Assembly: GCA_021733945.1 (NCBI GenBank)
Contig: JAIPJX010000006.1
Span: 1-64,000 of the forward strand
Direction: 5' to 3'
From: Verrucomicrobiota bacterium
Lineage (GTDB): Bacteria > Verrucomicrobiota > Verrucomicrobiia > Limisphaerales > SIBE01
DNA: 64,000 nucleotides
The notes beneath the pieces are model-generated. The model ran no database searches. It was not told the origin of the DNA and was given only the letters and a program-made list of their open reading frames with translations. The stretch's first letter is position 1. The number at the start of each line of letters is the position of its first letter. Shown in pieces: positions 13,942 to 24,125 of the stretch. Position numbers and translations under genes: made by a program.

Positions 13942-15321
13942 TCAGTGATTGCCTTGCGCGGTGGCCAGTTCCCGGCGGTTGAAGATTGTAATTCCGATCA
14001 ACCCAAACATGCCGCCGATCAGGAGGATAATCTGCGCAAAGGCCCGGGCAAGCTGCCACCAGGTAATGCTGCGACCCGTGCTCAGCGCGTCGATCGGCGA
14101 AAATCCGAGCACCAGGTTGATCAGGGACAGAATCAGCTTAAAGAGCGGCAGGGCGACGTAATCAATCCACGCCATCTTGTCCGCAAATCCCGTTTCGTGG
14201 TTCACTTCAAGCACGGTGCCCTGCTCCAGTACCAGAGCCAGAATTCCACTCGAGAACGCAACAATGAGGACCGACACGGAAACAAATGCGGCGACGGGAA
14301 ACGAGAGGAAGCTGGAGGCGGACAATCCGATTGCGGCCAGCAGGGCCAGCCAGAAGAAGATGATGGTGACACCGCGGAAATAGTTGACCCCGAAACTGCT
14401 CTCGGGATAGAGCACTTCCATGCCCTCTTCGGCGGAGAAAAGAAGCGCCGTCGGATTGCGGTTGACGAAGTTCACGATCAACACGCCTTCTTCATTGTAA
14501 AGGTTGGGAGGCACGATCAGTTCGTGAAACGAGTCCGGCGACAGGCTCATGTTCGTCTGGTAGAGCTCAGCGGAATTGGGGTCCCCCACCGCGAAGAGCC
14601 CCAGATAGGTGGGTGCCTTGCGGGTTTCGGCCACATTAAACTTCACGCGCAGAAACAGGGGCTTGTCCTTGAGGAAAACCTGGGCGCCCCCGAGGGGGAT
14701 TTCCCATTGCCGCCTGTAATCCGAACCCACCACCTGATCCATCGCTTTGAGTTGCTCCCGGATCTGGGTGCGCATGTAATCGAAATCCGAGACCGGCAGA
14801 TCTGTCTTTTCGATCCGCCTCTTGAGCTGTTCCTCCACCTGTTTTTCGAAATCAGGAATCGGCTCCCGGGCCGATCCCCGGGCGACCATGATCTCACTTT
14901 TCAGGATGGCCTGTTCATCGGGAGGGAGCTTCTGGGCGCGCCACTGCATCAGGCCAAAAACCGCTCCGGAGGAGATGCCGAGCAGAATTGCGTTGAGGGC
15001 CAGAATCCCGAACCACTTCCCAATCCAGATTTGCCACCTCGGAATCGGTTTCACCGCGACCATCTGGATCTGCGCCTCCTGGACATCCCGAGCCAAGGTC
15101 CCACAGGCGAGCCACAGGGTCGAAAAACCGAGGAACGCGGTGATGAGCGCCAGGGTGTAGGTGAGGATGATCTGTGTCAGACCGCGCGCAGTTCCATCAT
15201 CCTTGATCACCATCGGCAGTACGATCACCGATCCGATCAAAACCGCGCTCAGCACCAGCACGAGCCGGTACCGAATCGCTGCTCGCATCGTCAGCAGGGT
15301 GATCGCCAATATCCTTTGCAT
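13942..15321 (-). CDS. ABC-2 permease with large extracytoplasmic domain
   Basis: A 459-residue membrane protein. One transmembrane segment near the N-terminus is followed by two more (about 60-110), then a soluble domain of roughly 190 residues (about 120-310), then a cluster of four or so helices at the C-terminus. This is the ABC2_membrane / GldF-NatB-like layout. The ATG at 15321 (MQRILAITLL) is preferred over the ORF-track start because the N-terminal helix follows it directly. It pairs with the ATPase encoded immediately upstream and the 498-residue protein encoded downstream. Confidence 0.75.
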   Translation of the reverse strand: MQRILAITLLTMRAAIRYRLVLVLSAVLIGSVIVLPMVIKDDGTARGLTQIILTYTLALITAFLGFSTLWLACGTLARDVQEAQIQMVAVKPIPRWQIWIGKWFGILALNAILLGISSGAVFGLMQWRAQKLPPDEQAILKSEIMVARGSAREPIPDFEKQVEEQLKRRIEKTDLPVSDFDYMRTQIREQLKAMDQVVGSDYRRQWEIPLGGAQVFLKDKPLFLRVKFNVAETRKAPTYLGLFAVGDPNSAELYQTNMSLSPDSFHELIVPPNLYNEEGVLIVNFVNRNPTALLFSAEEGMEVLYPESSFGVNYFRGVTIIFFWLALLAAIGLSASSFLSFPVAAFVSVSVLIVAFSSGILALVLEQGTVLEVNHETGFADKMAWIDYVALPLFKLILSLINLVLGFSPIDALSTGRSITWWQLARAFAQIILLIGGMFGLIGITIFNRRELATAQGNH

Positions 15322-15428
15322 GTTTTCTGGCTTGCCGGTCAGTTGTCGAATGTTCGGTTTCGCCCACCATTCCCGCCCCCGGGCAACCGCCACGCGGAAA
15401 GGTAACGGTGGGACATCAAAGCAGGGTT

Positions 15429-16667
15429 CTAGTCTTTTTTCCCCAGCAGGCTGGACAGCTTTTCATCCGCTTTTTTAAGATCCGCTTCCTTGGCCGCAGC
15501 CGGTTTCTGGGCGGTGGGCTGGGGCGTGGGTGTCTCCGCTTTGGTGAACCCTTCCAATTTCCGGTGATCGACCGCGTCGCTCGGCGCGGCAGGGGCAGCG
15601 GTGGCGGGCTTGGATGCCTGCGCCTCGGATGCCGCCGTCAATCGTGTGAGGACTCGCTCGGTGCGCGATGAAGATTCTTCGGCTTCACCCCGCAGATAGG
15701 CCGCCACACGATGGCCCGAGGTCGCCCCCGAGGTGGACGCATCGGTTTGGCGCGCCTGGTTGACCACTCCAAGAAAGTAGCTCTCCAGATTCTGTGTCGG
15801 CGTATCAATCCGAATGCGATCCTCGGCAACATCCTTGCGGATGATCTCGAGCACCTTCTCCGTGGTTGCGCGCGGCAACACCGGCGTGGTGATTCGCATG
15901 GCGTCCGGAGTGGCCAGCAGTTCCCTGAGCGTTCCCATCGCCCGGATCTTGCCGCCATAGTAAATGACCACCCGGTCACAGACGTCTTCGACATCCGCCA
16001 GCAAATGACTGCTCAAGATGATCGTTTTGCCACGAGCCGCCAGCGCGAGGATCAGGTCCTTGACCTCACGACAGCCAATGGGATCGAGCCCGGAGGTGGG
16101 TTCATCGAGAATCACCAGATCGGGATCGTTGATGAGCGCCTGTGCCAGGCCGATCCGGCGCTGCATGCCCTTGGAAAATTCGCCAACCTGCCGGGTGCGA
16201 GCCTTGTCCAGTCCCACCATTTCCAGCAGCTGTTCCGAGCGTTGCTTGCGTTCCTTGGGAGGCAATGAGAACAGATTACCGAAAAAATCGAGGGTCTCGT
16301 CTGAATTCAGATACCGGTAGAGATAGGATTCCTCGGGCAGGTAGCCGATGCGCGATTTGGTGGCGACATGCCTTGGGCTGTGACGAAACACCTCCACGTG
16401 ACCCCGGGTGGGGTAGAGCAGGCCAAGCAGCATTTTTACCGTGGTGGACTTGCCGGAACCGTTTGGTCCCAGGAGCCCGAAAACCTCTCCACGCCGCACT
16501 TCAAAATCCACATTGTCAACCGCCCGCGCCTTCGGCCGACCCCAAAAGTCCTTGAACACCTTGGTGAGGCCGCGGACCGCCACCACGATCTCACCCGTTT
16601 GATGGGGCGACCGGGCGGAAGGTTCGGATTGCGGTGTGCTCAGGCTTTCGAGTGTGGCTGCGCTCAT
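15429..16667 (-). CDS. ABC ATPase with C-terminal low-complexity extension
   Basis: A 412-residue protein. The ATPase domain (about 25-245) has Walker A GPNGSGKSTT, signature FSKGMQRRIGLAQAL, Walker B LVILDEP and the switch His in SSHLL. A DrrA/CcmA-type accessory region follows (to about 315). The last 90 residues are Ala/Pro/Lys-rich and probably disordered. The track start lies inside the P-type ATPase gene. The ATG at 16667 (MSAATLES) removes that overlap and leaves a 22-bp spacer. The partner permease is encoded next on the strand. Confidence 0.88.
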   Translation of the reverse strand: MSAATLESLSTPQSEPSARSPHQTGEIVVAVRGLTKVFKDFWGRPKARAVDNVDFEVRRGEVFGLLGPNGSGKSTTVKMLLGLLYPTRGHVEVFRHSPRHVATKSRIGYLPEESYLYRYLNSDETLDFFGNLFSLPPKERKQRSEQLLEMVGLDKARTRQVGEFSKGMQRRIGLAQALINDPDLVILDEPTSGLDPIGCREVKDLILALAARGKTIILSSHLLADVEDVCDRVVIYYGGKIRAMGTLRELLATPDAMRITTPVLPRATTEKVLEIIRKDVAEDRIRIDTPTQNLESYFLGVVNQARQTDASTSGATSGHRVAAYLRGEAEESSSRTERVLTRLTAASEAQASKPATAAPAAPSDAVDHRKLEGFTKAETPTPQPTAQKPAAAKEADLKKADEKLSSLLGKKD

Positions 16668-16689: not shown

Positions 16690-18720
16690 TCAGGCGATCT
16701 TCGGCTCCAGCCGCGGTGAGGAGGCTGGCTCCGGTGTTTCACTCGATTCGAACGGTTCGAGTTCTTCGCCGTACCGCACCAGACGGGCACTATTGAATAC
16801 CACGATGAGGGATCCGACGTTGTGCAGCACCGCCGCAAGGATCGGGTGCACGTAACCAAATGCGGCGGCGATCAGGCCGCCGATGATGAAGATCACGCCC
16901 ACCATGAAGTTCTGGTTGATGACCGAACGAGTGCTCTTCGAAAGGCGCATCAGGAACGGAAGGCGGCGAAGATCGTTGTTCATGAGTGCGATCGTCGCGC
17001 TGTGAATGGCCACCTCGCTGCCGGCCGCCCCCATGGCAATGCCGATGTCGCCTGCCGCCAGTGCGGGGGCATCGTTTACACCGTCGCCCACCACCGCCAC
17101 ACGGTATCCCCGTTTCTTGATCTGCCGGACAAATTCCACCTTGTTTTGCGGGAGACACTCGGCCACCACCTCCTCGCAGCCGATTTCCAACGCCACCCGC
17201 GCCGCCACCGGCTGCCGGTCGCCCGACACCATGGCCACCCGACGCACACCGACCTCAAAGAGAGCGGCCAAAGACTCCCGCGCTTCGGCGCGTGTTTCGT
17301 CCCGCAGCCCGATCCAGCCGACACAGATTCCGTCCCGAGCCGCGAAAACCAGACTAAACCCCTCGGTCTCGTTGAGGTCCACCGTTTGTTCGAAATCACC
17401 GGTCACTCCATTGTCTCGCAGCCACTGCGCCCGTCCAATCACGACCTGAGCATCATCGACCCGAGCCTTGATGCCGCGTCCGGCGGTTTCAGTAAAATCT
17501 TCAGGATTGCCCATCGGCACACCGGCCTCCTCGGCCAGGATCGCCAGGGCCTTGGCCGTGGGATGATTGCTGTAACGTTCGGCGGTGGCCGCTATGCGGA
17601 GCAGCTCAGCCGGTTTGACGTCGCCGATCGGATTGAGCCGGCTCACGCTCAATTTGCCGGTCGTCAGTGTGCCCGTCTTGTCGAACACAAAGGCATTGAT
17701 CCGGGAAGCAGCCTCGATGTCGCCGACGTTCTTGATCAGGATTCCCAGGCGGGCAGCCGCCGAAAGCGCCGCCACCATCGCGGTGGGTGTTGCCAGAATA
17801 AAGGCGCACGGACAAGCAACGATCAGAACGGCGATCACGTTGTTCAGGTTCTGGGAGAACGCCCAGACCAGGGCGCCAATGACCAGCACGAACGGGGTGT
17901 AATAGCCCATGTATTGGTCGACAATGCGCATGATCGGCAGTTTGGTTTTCTCCGCCGCCAAAATCAGCCCGCGCACACGGCCCAGCGTGGTATCCTGTCC
18001 GGCCCGGCTCACGCGGATCTCCAGCACGCCGGTGAGATTCTGGGTTCCTGCAAAAACTTCATCACCGGGTTTCTTGTCAACCGGCAGCGATTCACCCGTG
18101 ATGTTCGCCTGGTTGAAAGATCCCTGTCCGTTCACGATCTCGCCGTCCGCGGCCACATTATCACCGGGGCGCACCCGGATGACATCGCCCACGGACAAAT
18201 CCTTCGCGGCGACCTCGTCCTCGTCACCGTTGCTGTTGATGCGCCGCGCCTTGGTCGGGGTGAGTTTGATCAGGGACTCGATCGAAGCGCGCGCGCCGGC
18301 TGCGGTGCGGGACTCGATGATTTCACCCATCAACATGAAAAACGCGACGATGCCCGCAATCTCGTATTGACCGGAGGCGAACGCGGCCAGAACGGCGATC
18401 CCGACCAGTTCGTTGATGCTGAGAATGCCGCGCCGGACATCCTTCAGGGCGGTCCAGACAATGGGGTATCCCAGAATGATCGCACCGATCATGGCGCTGA
18501 AGTTGGCGACCATGGATTCGGCGTTGGTGCCCTTGTCGAGAAACCACTGCACGACCCAGGCGTTGACGATGAAGATCAGGCCCACGAGGGTCTGCTTGAG
18601 GCGCACGGGCGTATGCTCGTGATCGTGCTCGCAAGTCTCGCAGTCCGGGTCGGACGGGTGCTGGGCATGATTCGGATCGAGCTCAGACTCTTTTCGGCTC
18701 ATGAGAGAGGTTACTTGCAT
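16690..18720 (-). CDS. P1B-type heavy-metal ATPase
   Basis: A metal-transporting P-type ATPase of about 676 residues. It has the P1B hallmark CPC in the sixth transmembrane helix (IVACPCAFILATPTAM), the phosphorylation motif DKTGTLTTG, the TGES actuator loop (ANITGESLPVDKKPGD), an HP motif (YSNHPTAKA) and the hinge GDGVNDAPAL. There is no HMA domain. Instead the N-terminus has a Cys/His-rich stretch, CETCEHDHEH, that could bind metal. The last helix reads HNVGSLIVVFNSARL, unlike the Cu-ATPase pattern and closer to the Zn/Cd/Mn-type groups. The metal cannot be fixed from sequence. The start is uncertain between 18720 and 18702. It lies between the SPFH genes and an ABC ATPase gene. Confidence 0.9.
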   Translation of the reverse strand: MQVTSLMSRKESELDPNHAQHPSDPDCETCEHDHEHTPVRLKQTLVGLIFIVNAWVVQWFLDKGTNAESMVANFSAMIGAIILGYPIVWTALKDVRRGILSINELVGIAVLAAFASGQYEIAGIVAFFMLMGEIIESRTAAGARASIESLIKLTPTKARRINSNGDEDEVAAKDLSVGDVIRVRPGDNVAADGEIVNGQGSFNQANITGESLPVDKKPGDEVFAGTQNLTGVLEIRVSRAGQDTTLGRVRGLILAAEKTKLPIMRIVDQYMGYYTPFVLVIGALVWAFSQNLNNVIAVLIVACPCAFILATPTAMVAALSAAARLGILIKNVGDIEAASRINAFVFDKTGTLTTGKLSVSRLNPIGDVKPAELLRIAATAERYSNHPTAKALAILAEEAGVPMGNPEDFTETAGRGIKARVDDAQVVIGRAQWLRDNGVTGDFEQTVDLNETEGFSLVFAARDGICVGWIGLRDETRAEARESLAALFEVGVRRVAMVSGDRQPVAARVALEIGCEEVVAECLPQNKVEFVRQIKKRGYRVAVVGDGVNDAPALAAGDIGIAMGAAGSEVAIHSATIALMNNDLRRLPFLMRLSKSTRSVINQNFMVGVIFIIGGLIAAAFGYVHPILAAVLHNVGSLIVVFNSARLVRYGEELEPFESSETPEPASSPRLEPKIA

Positions 18721-18801: not shown

Positions 18802-19908
18802 TCAGCGTCGCGATGGTTTCTGTGGTTCGCGGTTGAGCAACATTCTCAACTCACGCTCGCGCCCTTTCTGTCCCTCGGGGACGAAAAACTTCTCGATGGC
18901 GGAATTGGTCAGAATCCGTTGGACCGCCTCGTTCCGCAGGCGCGCCATAAACAGACCCGGGTTGCGCTCGAAATGCGGCAATTGATTTGTGAAATAACGT
19001 GCTTCGGCGGTCACCGCCTGGACCAGGCGCGCGCGGGTGGTTTCGCCGGCATTGACGATCGAGTTGGCTTCGCCCCGTGACGTGCTGTAGCTGCGGCTGG
19101 CGTAGGACCTGGCAACTTCATTGGTCTGGCGGCTCTCCTGTTCGGCCGAAAGCACCGCCTCGAACGCGGGTTTCAGATACCTGGGCGGGATCGACTTCAT
19201 TTCAACCTGTTCCACCGTCACGCCCAGCCCCTGCCGATCCACCATCGTCTGCACCCGGCCCGTGATTTTCTCCTTCAAACCCAGAATGTTCAACCGGAGT
19301 GCGTCATCCGCGGTGTATTGGGACGAAGCGTAGAAGAGGGCGTTGTTGAGTGCGTTCTGCACCAGGTTCGATGCGTTGACAAAGTTCAGCGCGTAATCGA
19401 GGGGTTTGTTGATTCGATACCGCAGCGTGGCGCGCAGGTGAATGATGTTCGTATCGGACGTCAGCGTGTATCCATCTGCCGCCGGGTTCAGGGAAGGCCC
19501 CGGATACGGTTCCGTTCCGGATGCTTCCATTTCCGGCGTGGTGGCATACCACCCGGTGGAAGAACGAACCGTCTGGAACTCGCTGAAAGGTATCTTCACC
19601 ACTTCGTCGACCGGGTAGGGAAACGACCAATGGGCTCCCGGACCGAGCAGCTGCTGATCCCCCACGCCGAGGGGACGGCCAAACCGGAGGATGATGGCTC
19701 GCTCCTTGGAGGATACGGTGAAAAATCCAGATGAGAAGAAGACCACCACCAGCAGGATCATGACGATCTTGACGATGACAAAACTGCTCCGAAGCGCCTC
19801 GGCCAGCGCGCGGGATCCGGAATCCTCGGCGGCATCGTGCGAAGGCACGCCCGTGTCCGGCAGCTGTTCGTCCTTCTTGGGATCGATGGGATCGTTGGAG
19901 TTGGTCAT
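18802..19908 (-). CDS. hflK: HflK-like SPFH membrane protein
   Basis: A 368-residue SPFH/prohibitin-family protein. One transmembrane segment (about 44-66) is followed by the SPFH domain, beginning SSKERAIILRFGRP, and a C-terminal helical region with Ala/Glu/Arg repeats. It resembles HflK, which with HflC forms a large cage around FtsH in E. coli. No ftsH gene is in the window. Its start codon lies 7 bp downstream of the stop of the HflC-like gene, so the order is hflC-hflK, reversed from the enterobacterial order. Confidence 0.85.
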   Translation of the reverse strand: MTNSNDPIDPKKDEQLPDTGVPSHDAAEDSGSRALAEALRSSFVIVKIVMILLVVVFFSSGFFTVSSKERAIILRFGRPLGVGDQQLLGPGAHWSFPYPVDEVVKIPFSEFQTVRSSTGWYATTPEMEASGTEPYPGPSLNPAADGYTLTSDTNIIHLRATLRYRINKPLDYALNFVNASNLVQNALNNALFYASSQYTADDALRLNILGLKEKITGRVQTMVDRQGLGVTVEQVEMKSIPPRYLKPAFEAVLSAEQESRQTNEVARSYASRSYSTSRGEANSIVNAGETTRARLVQAVTAEARYFTNQLPHFERNPGLFMARLRNEAVQRILTNSAIEKFFVPEGQKGRERELRMLLNREPQKPSRR

Positions 19909-19915
19909 GGCGCGA

Positions 19916-20851
19916 TCAAGGGTTCCGGGGCCTCAACGTCGGCACCGAGGATGCGCCTGAAGACGCTCCCGGAATTCGGGTGAGCAGGTCGTAAGGCGGC
20001 GTGCGTTCGTCAAGAATCAGGGTTGTCTTGTCCTTCAGCGTGGATTCCAGCGTCTCGACGTTCAGAAGGAACATCGCCAGCTCCGCATTCTGCTCAAACA
20101 CCTTGAACCACTCCGCCGCTTCGGCATCCGCTTTGCCACGGATTTCGATCGCCTGGCTGGATGCTTCGGCAAGAATCTTGTCCCGTTCCCGGTCGGCATT
20201 GCTCCGGATCTTCATGGCCGCCGCTTCCCCCTCGGCCTTGATCCGCTGCACCTCGCGGTCGCGTTCGGACTGCATGCGCGCGAACACCTTTTCGGTCACG
20301 CTCTCGGGCAGCCCCAGTTTCTTGATGCCAACGAACTTCACCTCGATGCCGTATTTATCGGCGGCCACCGGTCGGATCGCCTGCATGATTTCGCGTTCGA
20401 TCTCGTCGAACCTGAGCTGCTTGGCATCCGTGGAGACAAAATGAGAGAATGTATGCTTGCCAACGACTTCGTTCTTGCTGCTCTCGACCAATCCACCCAG
20501 AGCGGGTTCCGCCTCGGACGCCTGCCCGCCTGGGAAACTGTTGAAGAAGTTGGTCGGGTTGCTGATCGTCCATCCGACATACACCATGACCAGGAGCGGA
20601 TAACTGTCCTGGGTGAGCGCCTGTTCGAACCGGCCCTCGTAGCTGTGGATCCGGCGGTCAAACCGGTAGACCTTCTGAATGGGGCGCGGCCATTTCCAGT
20701 TCAACCCCGCCTGCTCAATGAACCGGGTCGGTTTGTCAAACGTGGTCACCACCGCCACCTCGGTCTGGCGGACCTGGAAGGTGAACAACAGGATCACAAA
20801 GATGAACAGTAGGAGAAACCCGACGATGACCGTGATTGTATTGCGTTTCAT
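19916..20851 (-). CDS. hflC: HflC-like SPFH membrane protein
   Basis: A 311-residue SPFH protein with one N-terminal transmembrane segment (about 7-27), the SPFH core starting RQTEVAVVTTFDKPTR, and a helical stalk containing QSERDREVQRIKAEGEAAAMKI, the pattern typical of HflC. The gene lies between a 629-residue polytopic SPFH gene (15-bp gap) and the HflK-like gene (7-bp gap), so the three should be made from one message and may assemble together. Confidence 0.88.
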   Translation of the reverse strand: MKRNTITVIVGFLLLFIFVILLFTFQVRQTEVAVVTTFDKPTRFIEQAGLNWKWPRPIQKVYRFDRRIHSYEGRFEQALTQDSYPLLVMVYVGWTISNPTNFFNSFPGGQASEAEPALGGLVESSKNEVVGKHTFSHFVSTDAKQLRFDEIEREIMQAIRPVAADKYGIEVKFVGIKKLGLPESVTEKVFARMQSERDREVQRIKAEGEAAAMKIRSNADRERDKILAEASSQAIEIRGKADAEAAEWFKVFEQNAELAMFLLNVETLESTLKDKTTLILDERTPPYDLLTRIPGASSGASSVPTLRPRNP

Positions 20852-20866: not shown

Positions 20867-22756
20867 TTACTTGGCGGCACCCGGAAGCGGCACATCCAGA
20901 AGATCGGGGCGTAGTTTGTCCTGCAGATCCACCGTCACGACGTCGCGCACATTGGTGACAGTCAAAATGTATTTCCGGGAATTGGTCGCACTCTGCGAGA
21001 GTGCCTTCAGGTAGGCCCGATGTGAAAAGATTGTCGGCGAAGCCCGGAACGCGGAGAGCTGATTGGTGAAGCGCGCCGCCCTGGCCTGAGTCTCGGCCAC
21101 TTTGCGAAACAGGTAGGCGTCCGCCTGGTCAATGGCCATGGAGGCATTGGCCGATGCCAGAGCCACCGTCTCGGCCGCATAACCTTCGGCGGCATGAACG
21201 GCCGATTCCTTCTCCTGACTGGCACCGTTGACCTCTTCAAATTTGGTGGCAACCTTCACCGGCGGATGGATGTCCTGCAATCCGACCAAAACGACATCCA
21301 CTCCGAGTTGAAGCGCGTTGGCCTGGGTTTGAATGCGTTCCCGCAGATCCAGCGCCGCACTGGCACGGCCATTGGACATCACGTCAAACAGATCGACGCC
21401 AACGAGGTAGCGGATCACTTCGCGGGTGGCAATTTTCTCAAGCAACTTGCCGGAATCCACATGGTTGTAAAACCAGGCACGCAGATCATTGATCTGGTAT
21501 TGCACCGGAATATTGATGCTCAGCAAATCGACGGGCGCGCCCTTCTCGGCGGTGACCGAGTTGGTCGAGGCGGAAAGCGAACGGCTGGCCACCATCACGT
21601 TGAACTCTTCCTCACCGGCATGCGCCACCGACCAAAGGACCGTGTGGCTGTCTTCGGCATGCTCCTCTTCGTGCTCCTCCCCTTCCTCGGCACCCACCGT
21701 GAACGTCTGGATTTGACGGGTACGGGCGCGGTAAACGGTGTCAATCGGAGCCGGAAGTTTCAGATGCATTCCAGGCTCGAGCAACGCGCCATTGTCCACC
21801 GGACGGCCGAACCGTTCGAGAAGCCCCTGTTCGCCCGGGCTGATGAACACCACCGTGGTGGAGAGCCAGAGCAATGCAAACTGCAGAAGCACGATCCAGG
21901 CGAAGGCTTTCTCGAGAAACCGGTAGAACCAGGTTTCCGACACCTTGAATCCGAACTGGTAATCAAGCGCCTGTGCAGCCGTGGTCACCAAACCTTCGGG
22001 ATGCCCGAGCAATCCGACCAGCCGGCTCTCGTAGAGCGGACGGGCGGCCTTGCCCTTGACTCGGGGACGGTAGATCTCGAGCACCAGATTGACCAGGTTC
22101 TCGATGGCGGCCAGGGCGATGATGCCGGCAAAGACGCGGGCGGTGTACAAATCGAACCCCGAAAATCCCAGAAGGTCCGCGGCGTGGGACACTGCGACGA
22201 TGAAACAGATATACGAACCCAGCAGCAGGTAGCTGGCACCGGGCCGGAGCAGGCGCGAGTTCTCCAGCTGCGCCAGGCCGGCCGAATATTTGCCAACCAT
22301 GAACAGGATCAATGCGCACAGCCCGAAAAGCGCCATCGAAACCGTTGGTTTCGAGAGTCCCTCCGGCGTGATTTTCATCAGCCAGGTCGCCAGGAAATAG
22401 GCCACACCGGCCTGGATCAGGAAGAGGAACACCGTGAACACGGGGAGAAACACCCGTTCGAACTGCTCCCTGGACCGTTGTGCGGGCAGAATCTCGACAT
22501 CGGTCGCCGTAAACAGCCCGGAGCCACCCTTCGATTTGGTGAGCTCCTCAAATTCGAGCTTCTCCAGCCGCTCGGATTCCTCCAGCCGCATCTGAATGTA
22601 GCTGACACAGGCGACCAGCAGGCCGAGTCCCAGCATCACCAACCCAGCCTGACCGGTCAGGGTCTTGGAATAAAACGCAAGGATCGCCGTGGCGGCGAAG
22701 ACCACCATCGACACAACCACATTGACCAGCCCAGTTTTTAAATGATTTCGTTCCAT
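20867..22756 (-). CDS. Polytopic SPFH protein with His/Glu-rich insert
   Basis: A 629-residue protein with an unusual layout. The first 310 residues hold about seven hydrophobic segments (near 10-28, 32-52, 100-122, 133-150, 168-190, 205-225 and 290-310). An SPFH/HflK-like domain follows (SPGEQGLLERFGRP, then the LSINIPVQYQINDL region) with a helical C-terminus. Between the first SPFH strands there is an acidic/His insert, EEGEEHEEEHAEDSH, that could bind divalent metal. Ordinary HflK has one membrane helix, so the polytopic part is an addition of unknown function. It is the first of three SPFH genes and starts 8 bp after an ABC-2 permease gene. Confidence 0.8.
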   Translation of the reverse strand: MERNHLKTGLVNVVVSMVVFAATAILAFYSKTLTGQAGLVMLGLGLLVACVSYIQMRLEESERLEKLEFEELTKSKGGSGLFTATDVEILPAQRSREQFERVFLPVFTVFLFLIQAGVAYFLATWLMKITPEGLSKPTVSMALFGLCALILFMVGKYSAGLAQLENSRLLRPGASYLLLGSYICFIVAVSHAADLLGFSGFDLYTARVFAGIIALAAIENLVNLVLEIYRPRVKGKAARPLYESRLVGLLGHPEGLVTTAAQALDYQFGFKVSETWFYRFLEKAFAWIVLLQFALLWLSTTVVFISPGEQGLLERFGRPVDNGALLEPGMHLKLPAPIDTVYRARTRQIQTFTVGAEEGEEHEEEHAEDSHTVLWSVAHAGEEEFNVMVASRSLSASTNSVTAEKGAPVDLLSINIPVQYQINDLRAWFYNHVDSGKLLEKIATREVIRYLVGVDLFDVMSNGRASAALDLRERIQTQANALQLGVDVVLVGLQDIHPPVKVATKFEEVNGASQEKESAVHAAEGYAAETVALASANASMAIDQADAYLFRKVAETQARAARFTNQLSAFRASPTIFSHRAYLKALSQSATNSRKYILTVTNVRDVVTVDLQDKLRPDLLDVPLPGAAK

Positions 22757-22764
22757 GCGTAGCT

Positions 22765-23910
22765 TCAGGTCAATTCGCGGTCTTCAAACAGGATCAACGC
22801 CACAGAGAGCGTGGCACCCAGATACCCGAGCACATAACCGAACGCTTGCCCGACGTACGGCCACGGGATCTTTTTTTCGTTCTCAAGCGCGTCTGCAAGC
22901 CAGAAAAGCTGCCAGTTAGGCAAAACACTGTAAAGAATAGAAGCCCACCAGACGGGTCCCAACCCCGCCGCCCGCATCCGGGCCTGCTCCTCGGGGGTAA
23001 CCTGCCCCTGCTCCACCGGCTCCAGTCGCCCATCCTTGTTCAGATCATGGGTCTCCACCGTCTGGGACATCATTCGAATTTGTTCGTCCGTCCAACGGGT
23101 GTCGCGCACCTGAGCCTTGGTGTCGAACAGGTTCCACGCAGGAACCGCCCGTCGTCCCACCAGGAAATCCGACATCAGCCCCAGCAGGAAGAACGCAGAG
23201 CATACCGCCAAAGTCGGGATCATTTCAAGCCTCGTCGAACAGGCCAGCGCCAGTCCCGCCAGTATCCAGAGTGCAAACAGGATCAGGATCGCCGCCGGCA
23301 CCATCCTCCAGTCCACCACCGGTGCCGCCCGGGTCATGATCGCCTCTGCCTTCGTGAAAAATGCAATCACCACGAACGCCACCGTGATCATCCCCACCAC
23401 AAAAAACACGGCATCCGCCACAAACGGACGCCGTAGAAAATAGTTGGAAAACCCGCCGAACCCGTAGCCCAAAGCCACCGCCCCAAAGAATATCAAGAGC
23501 GAGCGGGTGTCCACCTCGCCATAGGCGTCGAATGCCATCCGGCTCGCCAGCAGCGCGGCCAGCAGATTCGTGAAGGTCAGCAGCGTCAACGCCCCGGCCA
23601 CACCCACATATTTCGCGAGCAAAAACTGCACCCGGCTCACCGGCTTGGCCAGGACCGCCAGGGCGGTCCCGCTCCGGATCTCATGCGCCACGGATGAGGA
23701 GGCGCTCAGCACCGCCCCGAACAGTCCCGTCAGCAGCATCGTGGCCAGCGCGCCATCCTTCACCAGCTTGGGATCTTCTCCAAATCCGAAATAGGGCACC
23801 GCCGACAGAAACACGATGAAACAGGCGGCAGCCGTCATGAGCAACAGGAACACGGGCTGACGGATCAGCTCCATGAACGCGTTGCCCGCTATGGTCATTG
23901 CTTGTCGCAT
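22765..23910 (-). CDS. ABC-2 type permease with EF-hand-like loop
   Basis: A 381-residue membrane protein with about six helices in the NosY/ABC2_membrane_2 style (first helix near residue 20-40, then a second pair with VAHEIRSGTALAVLAKPVSR, the coupling-helix-like motif of this family). Between the last two helices is a soluble segment containing DLNKDGRLEPVEQ, which fits the 12-residue EF-hand calcium loop. The ATG at 23910 is chosen over the TTG of the track. It heads the minus-strand block, and no ATPase gene is adjacent, so it may share an ATPase encoded further down the block. Confidence 0.72.
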   Translation of the reverse strand: MRQAMTIAGNAFMELIRQPVFLLLMTAAACFIVFLSAVPYFGFGEDPKLVKDGALATMLLTGLFGAVLSASSSVAHEIRSGTALAVLAKPVSRVQFLLAKYVGVAGALTLLTFTNLLAALLASRMAFDAYGEVDTRSLLIFFGAVALGYGFGGFSNYFLRRPFVADAVFFVVGMITVAFVVIAFFTKAEAIMTRAAPVVDWRMVPAAILILFALWILAGLALACSTRLEMIPTLAVCSAFFLLGLMSDFLVGRRAVPAWNLFDTKAQVRDTRWTDEQIRMMSQTVETHDLNKDGRLEPVEQGQVTPEEQARMRAAGLGPVWWASILYSVLPNWQLFWLADALENEKKIPWPYVGQAFGYVLGYLGATLSVALILFEDRELT

Positions 23911-24125
23911 GCGTCTCAAATAAATCGTTTTCCGCCAATTCCATGGGGCGGTCGGTGGCGTGCCTCAGTTGCATGCCGACCGGCGGACTGACCTAGGTGA
24001 GCGGCGAAATTAACTGGATTCCGCCCTGCTGCACACTGTGCGTTTGATTGCACACCCACTCCCTGGAGCAGGCATCCGAACGCACAGGGTCAAGCACTTA
24101 GATCCCGAAGCCCCCTCGCTCCTGC
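23911..24125. other. Intergenic region upstream of the SPFH/ABC block
   Basis: A 215-bp gap between the parvulin gene's stop and the start of the 12-gene minus-strand block. The block's promoter should be here because all genes run leftward from it, but no clear -35/-10 pair was identified. A short dyad TGCACACTGTGCG-N-TTGCACACC near 24,030-24,055 could be an operator or part of a terminator for the parvulin gene. Confidence 0.3.

Follow-up and report, generated by a model that had tools for sequence, protein, structure and literature searches.

The window (the whole 64,000-nucleotide stretch of DNA that was analysed) carries on its minus strand a group of genes centred on a polytopic SPFH protein of 629 aa, referred to here as TM-HflK (20867–22756). 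It was identified from its open reading frame, its Band_7 domain, an AF2 model, and its placement in a clade with proteobacterial counterparts. Downstream lie genes for an HflC-like SPFH protein of 311 aa (19916–20851; open reading frame, profiles, and cassette clade), a second HflK-like SPFH protein of 368 aa (18802–19908; open reading frame, profiles, and tree), and a P1B ATPase (16690–18720; 555.8 bits vs 346.25 for TIGR01525, and cassette clade). The start of the ATPase was placed at MQVTSL by comparison with relatives, the open reading frame list giving 18774. These genes are followed by an ABC-2 type transporter ATPase (15429–16667, with an inferred start) and an ABC-2 type permease (13942–15393), and are preceded by another ABC-2 type permease (22765–23919) whose position is conserved in the order; all three were recognised from Pfam and locus comparison. 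Between the membrane parts of the upstream permease lies DLNKDGRLEPVEQ, a stretch that resembles an EF-hand. The same row (ABC permease, TM-HflK, HflC-like protein, second HflK-like protein, P1B ATPase, ABC ATPase, and ABC-2 permease) is order-wide and holds wherever the contig is long enough, with the ABC ATPase/permease pair going undetected at a few loci. This ABC-2 ATPase and permease (13942–16667) also come after the cassette across much of the phylum, and are absent from the proteobacterial loci.

The SPFH domain of TM-HflK, predicted to be periplasmic, is a Band_7 match (PF01145) at residues 305–526 (21179–21844; 59 bits against a gathering score of 23.6), and is the only Pfam match above threshold. 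In a fold search, this part of the AF2 model matches HflK, HflC, stomatin, and prohibitin. Structure prediction of the whole protein, which had been suggested as a check on the original prediction, gave a mean pLDDT of 90.2 (103 homologues in the alignment, with plasmid-derived rows left out) and placed seven long helices ahead of the SPFH strands, at residues 5–30, 33–76, 91–128, 137–164, 168–195, 201–229, and 276–299. The roughly 300 residues ahead of the domain agree with the 310 polytopic residues previously described, although the proposal that about seven membrane segments had been added required correction. The seventh helix (residues 276–299; 21860–21931) lines up with the one helix that E. 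coli HflK and HflC each have (AF2, and phmmer alignment to HflK/HflC chains) and corresponds to the canonical HflK membrane helix; therefore, six helices have been added, within residues 1–229 (22070–22756; fold, profile, and conservation). Between them and the seventh helix is a highly conserved segment, residues 230–275 (21932–22069), which is conserved as YRPRxxG..YESRLxGLLxxP..TAAxALDYQFGFKVSETWFY and is predicted from the topology to be cytosolic. Residue E219 in TM6 (22098–22100) is E in 105 and D in 2 of 107 homologues, and is thus an acidic position within a membrane helix.

The name HflK, as first applied to this protein, is not quite right. Its score against the closest NCBIfam equivalog, hflK TIGR01933, is 133.8 bits (cut-off, 159.4), all three SPFH proteins fall under the HflK/HflC equivalog cut-offs, and HflK has a single N-terminal helix where the AF2 model of TM-HflK has seven. 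Additionally, a separate canonical HflK/HflC pair is present elsewhere in the same genome (G000:C16:10779-12328, minus strand). This pair groups with E. coli HflK/HflC outside the cassette clades, and both TM-HflK (100/99) and the cassette HflC (98/98) form clades distinct from the canonical proteins of E. coli and of the same genome. The TM-HflK proteins of Verrucomicrobiota are monophyletic with their proteobacterial counterparts (100/99); for the second HflK-like protein, the sequences from the two phyla formed no joint clade in the tree. Within the order, TM-HflK matches were found in 96 of 97 genomes, and in about 90 of these 97 the match is full-length.

The original prediction drew attention to a His/Glu-rich insert, EEGEEHEEEHAEDSH, which was said to resemble a metal-binding loop. 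The insert is present between two SPFH strands (residues 356–373; 21638–21691), but it is not a conserved feature among 107 aligned homologues. The loop varies in length from 9 to 35 aa, has no His in 60 of the 107, and contains 2 His in a relative of 79% identity and 0 or 1 in relatives of 64–67% identity. Because most relatives, including those at 64–67% identity, have no His-rich insert, the idea of a conserved metal-binding loop does not survive the refutation test originally proposed for it; a conserved metal site rich in His at this position was rejected on the length and His variation of the 107 homologues. Judged from the aligned sequences, the loop is still not random, and across the family it is a place where His and acidic residues concentrate. 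His makes up 5.7% of the loop and 10.3% of its indel-prone columns, compared to 0.85% of the other indel-prone columns of the same proteins (Fisher p 3e-19, a site-level value that is not corrected for phylogeny and overstates the enrichment because the rows are related). Strongly His-rich loops recur across distant lineages (loci L128, L155, L157, L160, L185, and L038), as do DGHGH-type expansions. Therefore, accessory metal binding by the loop is plausible in some members.

Stronger conservation is found outside the insert. In the alignment, an LWxxxH motif directly following it at residues 374–379 (21620–21637) has W375 in 107/107 and H379 in 102/107 proteins, and a family-specific HPP at residues 497–499 (21260–21268) has H497 in 105/107 and P498 in 107/107; E. 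coli HflK has RPP at the aligned position. All four residues are retained in four proteobacterial proteins at 21–24% identity. W375, H379, and H497, none of which had been pointed out before, are thus the conserved candidate residues, rather than the insert.

When the full-length model was used in the fold search, zinc transporters (YiiP and ZnT) were the first matches outside the SPFH proteins. Residues 1–305 were also modelled on their own (pLDDT 87.2, pTM 0.79) and compared to PDB structures with Foldseek, and the top 21 matches were all CDF/ZnT proteins (probability 0.91–1.00, E 0.005–0.36; TM-scores by query 0.39–0.54, the best being 0.54 for 8f6e with an rmsd of 4.0), while each non-CDF fold listed had a probability of at most 0.33. 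Similarly, hhalign aligned the N-terminal profile to a CDF profile from the same order with scores of 31–37 and E-values of 0.0003–0.002, with TM4–TM6 in register; a subset from other classes gave weaker scores of 20–29. Unrelated families and reversed profiles scored at most 26, and a truly related pair (two ABC-2 permeases) scored 48–50. The hhalign probabilities to CDF were about 1–43% over both directions and subsets, compared to 0.1–3.2% for unrelated controls, and neither these probabilities nor the Foldseek E-values, which are at least 0.005, are significant alone. A first profile alignment gave a probability of 1%, and local alignment with default settings performed better. A Pfam search found no PF01545 match in TM-HflK at E<=1, and no conserved D or H was found among the 107 homologues at the positions of the CDF metal ligands (D/HxxxD in TM2 and HxxxD in TM5). 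Overall, the models and profiles are at most suggestive of homology. The added helices appear to adopt a CDF-like fold, possibly that of a CDF descendant, in which the CDF transport site is missing. Because AF2 has been exposed to CDF structures, the similarity requires experimental support.

The P1B ATPase has the hallmarks of its class, namely DKTGT, ACPCAF (the CPC of TM6), and NHP (the HP motif). It had been placed two genes further along the operon and described as having a Cys/His-rich N-terminus. It is the third gene downstream, with two genes between, and the description of its N-terminus was borne out by the N-tail HAQHPSDPDCETCEHDHEH (18613–18669; sequence comparison). In the N-tails examined, His accounts for 19% of the residues and Cys for 5%; relatives show a recurring CxxCxHDH-like motif, and such a tail is present in most, not all, cassette P1Bs. 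A single clade (100/100) holds the cassette P1Bs, and E. coli ZntA and CopA, S. aureus CadA, and nine other P1Bs carried on plasmids fall outside it. In TM8, nearly all members have a His with N, T, S, E, or a similar residue after it, and an NSARL-type end; the references have M or D at this position in copper and zinc/cadmium pumps, and HE in some others. The CPC motif is degenerate in the P1Bs of some relatives. For instance, the cassette P1Bs of family f94 (L154, L155, L157, and L160) have VPAA in place of CPC, and the SPFH loops of this family are among the most His-rich; the loss is possibly a single event because this is one lineage. The cassette P1Bs of another group (L172–L178) have xPC (SIPC, SLPC, or AMPC) for CPC, and HE in TM8.

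Among the 101 loci with at least 5.2 kb of downstream sequence, both other SPFH genes accompany TM-HflK in 101/101 and the P1B gene is on the same strand within 6 kb in 100/101, the sole exception (L179) having it upstream instead. The core four genes are likewise found together elsewhere in the phylum, in classes other than that of the window, and on four plasmids of proteobacteria (Rhizobium, Burkholderia, Paraburkholderia, and Klebsiella); they are present in alpha-, beta-, and gammaproteobacteria. The proposed link between the polytopic SPFH protein and the P1B ATPase is strongly supported by this conservation, by the three proteobacterial classes, and by the single clade of the P1Bs. From these comparisons, the cassette looks to be inherited, or transferred, as a unit. 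In Paraburkholderia sprentiae it is located just downstream of zigA, zinc ABC transporter genes, and PCu(A)C, a context that comes from one proteobacterial cassette only; the annotation of two plasmid records from Rhizobium is not usable. A search for Zur-like boxes found none upstream in the window and no convincing one in relatives, and the plasmid loci scored like shuffled sequence. Several public metagenome-assembled genome records (L101, L104, L036, and L043), titled as Proteobacteria or Akkermansia muciniphila, seem to be mislabelled because their cassette groups with the order of the window.

A similar arrangement has been reported at the hmtA locus of P. aeruginosa. There, PA2434–PA2439, which include HmtA (PA2435) and the HflK/HflC-family proteins PA2437–PA2439, are up 5.6–14.4x in a delta-znuA strain (PMC4542158). 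Zur shifts the promoter of PA2439, the first gene of the locus, and hmtA mRNA is low and flat upon zinc addition (PMC8531726). HmtA and the PA2437–2439 proteins are raised in zinc depletion, not all significantly (PMC11761036). Overexpression of HmtA leads to higher cellular Zn and Cu, although import itself is described there as a claim in need of confirmation (PMC10393844). In gene order and annotation, to which the comparison is limited, PA2439–PA2435 resemble the cassette, with an HflK-family, an HflC, and an HflC-family gene ahead of the P1B gene. The P. aeruginosa locus differs in having an extra gene, PA2436, before the P1B gene, and the operon in the window additionally carries ABC-2 transporter genes. 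Searching plasmids with the copies from Paraburkholderia and Klebsiella matched no Pseudomonas record. By operon identity, which rests on gene order and annotation, the cassette P1B (the TM8-His clade) would correspond to HmtA.

Taken together, these observations are interpreted, with moderate confidence, as a conserved module in which three SPFH proteins serve as a dedicated scaffold for a P1B pump of the HmtA type (Zn/Cu). Weighing against this reading are the search for Zur-like boxes, which found none in the window and no convincing one in relatives, the flat hmtA mRNA after zinc addition in one study, the degenerate CPC of some cassette P1Bs, and the limited significance of the CDF matches. 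TM-HflK would be the lead subunit, acting with the HflC-like protein, the second HflK-like protein, and the dedicated P1B ATPase. By analogy with HflKC, the three SPFH proteins most likely form a periplasmic cage or dome, or a microdomain, with the P1B ATPase in or beside it, and this cage would hold, stabilise, or feed the pump. Because the CDF-like six-helix platform has no CDF metal site, it is probably a docking or structural module and not a transporter; together with segment 230–275 it would provide a membrane and cytosolic docking surface. On the periplasmic side, the LWxxxH hairpin and the His of HPP are candidate sites for handling metal or contacting the pump, and in some lineages the variable His/Glu loop may help to concentrate metal in an accessory role. 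The metal is probably Zn or Cu and the direction probably inward, with Zur/zinc-starvation control and import by HmtA both drawn, as analogies, from the P. aeruginosa literature. For this organism, we infer cage formation, pump contact, metal, and direction. A more specific version, in which a pseudo-CDF/SPFH fusion nucleates a three-component SPFH cage around the P1B ATPase and this periplasmic cage, with its W/H hairpin and HPP histidine, captures Zn or Cu and passes it into the pump, is offered tentatively and remains rather doubtful; if true, a zinc-transporter fold has been reused as a scaffold in a metal-import machine.

Homology to HflK/HflC and the HflKC-like fold also allow the SPFH trio to be viewed as a modulator of FtsH proteolysis, as HflK/C are known FtsH partners (PMC13220708). 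The trio would then govern turnover of the metal pump and the ABC transporters, and the SPFH proteins would not be metal sensors. However, the genome has its separate canonical HflK/HflC pair, the trio scores under the equivalog cut-offs, and the constant partner is a P1B ATPase, with no protease gene identified adjoining the annotated proteobacterial cassettes; this role is thus unlikely. A different possibility is a platform for metal efflux or resistance, in which the SPFH proteins cluster and stabilise an exporting pump. Most P1B ATPases export, and the cytosolic Cys/His-rich N-tail could gather metal for that purpose. PacL1–CtpC provides a precedent (PMC9374683), and yet zinc depletion induces the P. 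aeruginosa operon, to which Zur binds (PMC4542158, PMC8531726, PMC11761036), cells overexpressing HmtA have more Zn and Cu (PMC10393844), and the Paraburkholderia cassette is beside zinc-uptake genes, all of which make efflux improbable. That the insert is itself a functional metal sensor or donor site, as initially proposed, would be in keeping with the His and acid enrichment of the loop and its recurrent DGHGH-type expansions, but with His missing from most homologues and from close relatives, and with so variable a length, this is very improbable.

A scaffold dedicated to the pump would be of wider interest. The mechanism of HmtA-type P1B pumps, and whether import is real, are openly questioned (PMC10393844), and the almost invariant partnership of the P1B ATPase with three SPFH proteins, one of them bearing a membrane domain that resembles a zinc transporter, suggests that work on the pump has so far left its scaffold out. 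The cassette is also a bacterial, genetically tractable case for the contents of SPFH cages, and it spans Verrucomicrobiota and Pseudomonadota and is therefore testable in laboratory strains. In the literature searched, the polytopic domain is undescribed, SPFH–P1B coupling does not go beyond gene listings, and nothing relevant joins CDF or P1B ATPases with bacterial SPFH proteins. The finding is worth following for its cassette and its CDF-like domain, and not for the insert.

Among known systems, HflK/HflC is close to the module, which shares with it the SPFH domain, the helix directly before it, an HflK-type C-terminal half, and paired HflK-like and HflC-like genes; it differs by six extra helices, by three SPFH genes where HflK/HflC has two, and by the constant P1B partner. 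CDF transporters (YiiP, ZnT/SLC30) resemble the TM-HflK model in its predicted six-helix arrangement, with the N-terminus inside and TM6 ending in the cytosol, and in the collinear, weak profile match over TM4–TM6, whereas in TM-HflK the six helices are followed by one more and by the SPFH domain, predicted to be periplasmic, in place of the CDF cytosolic domain. In PacL1–CtpC of M. tuberculosis, a membrane scaffold and a P1B ATPase are likewise encoded in one operon, and the metal-binding motif of PacL1 is required only at high zinc (PMC9374683). However, PacL1 is another kind of protein, its foci are independent of flotillin, and CtpC exports. Human stomatin differs in acting alone and in having a channel and a urea transporter, and no P-type pump, as cargo; nevertheless, its dome encloses AQP1 and UT-B and thus offers a precedent for SPFH proteins around transport proteins (PMC12407830).
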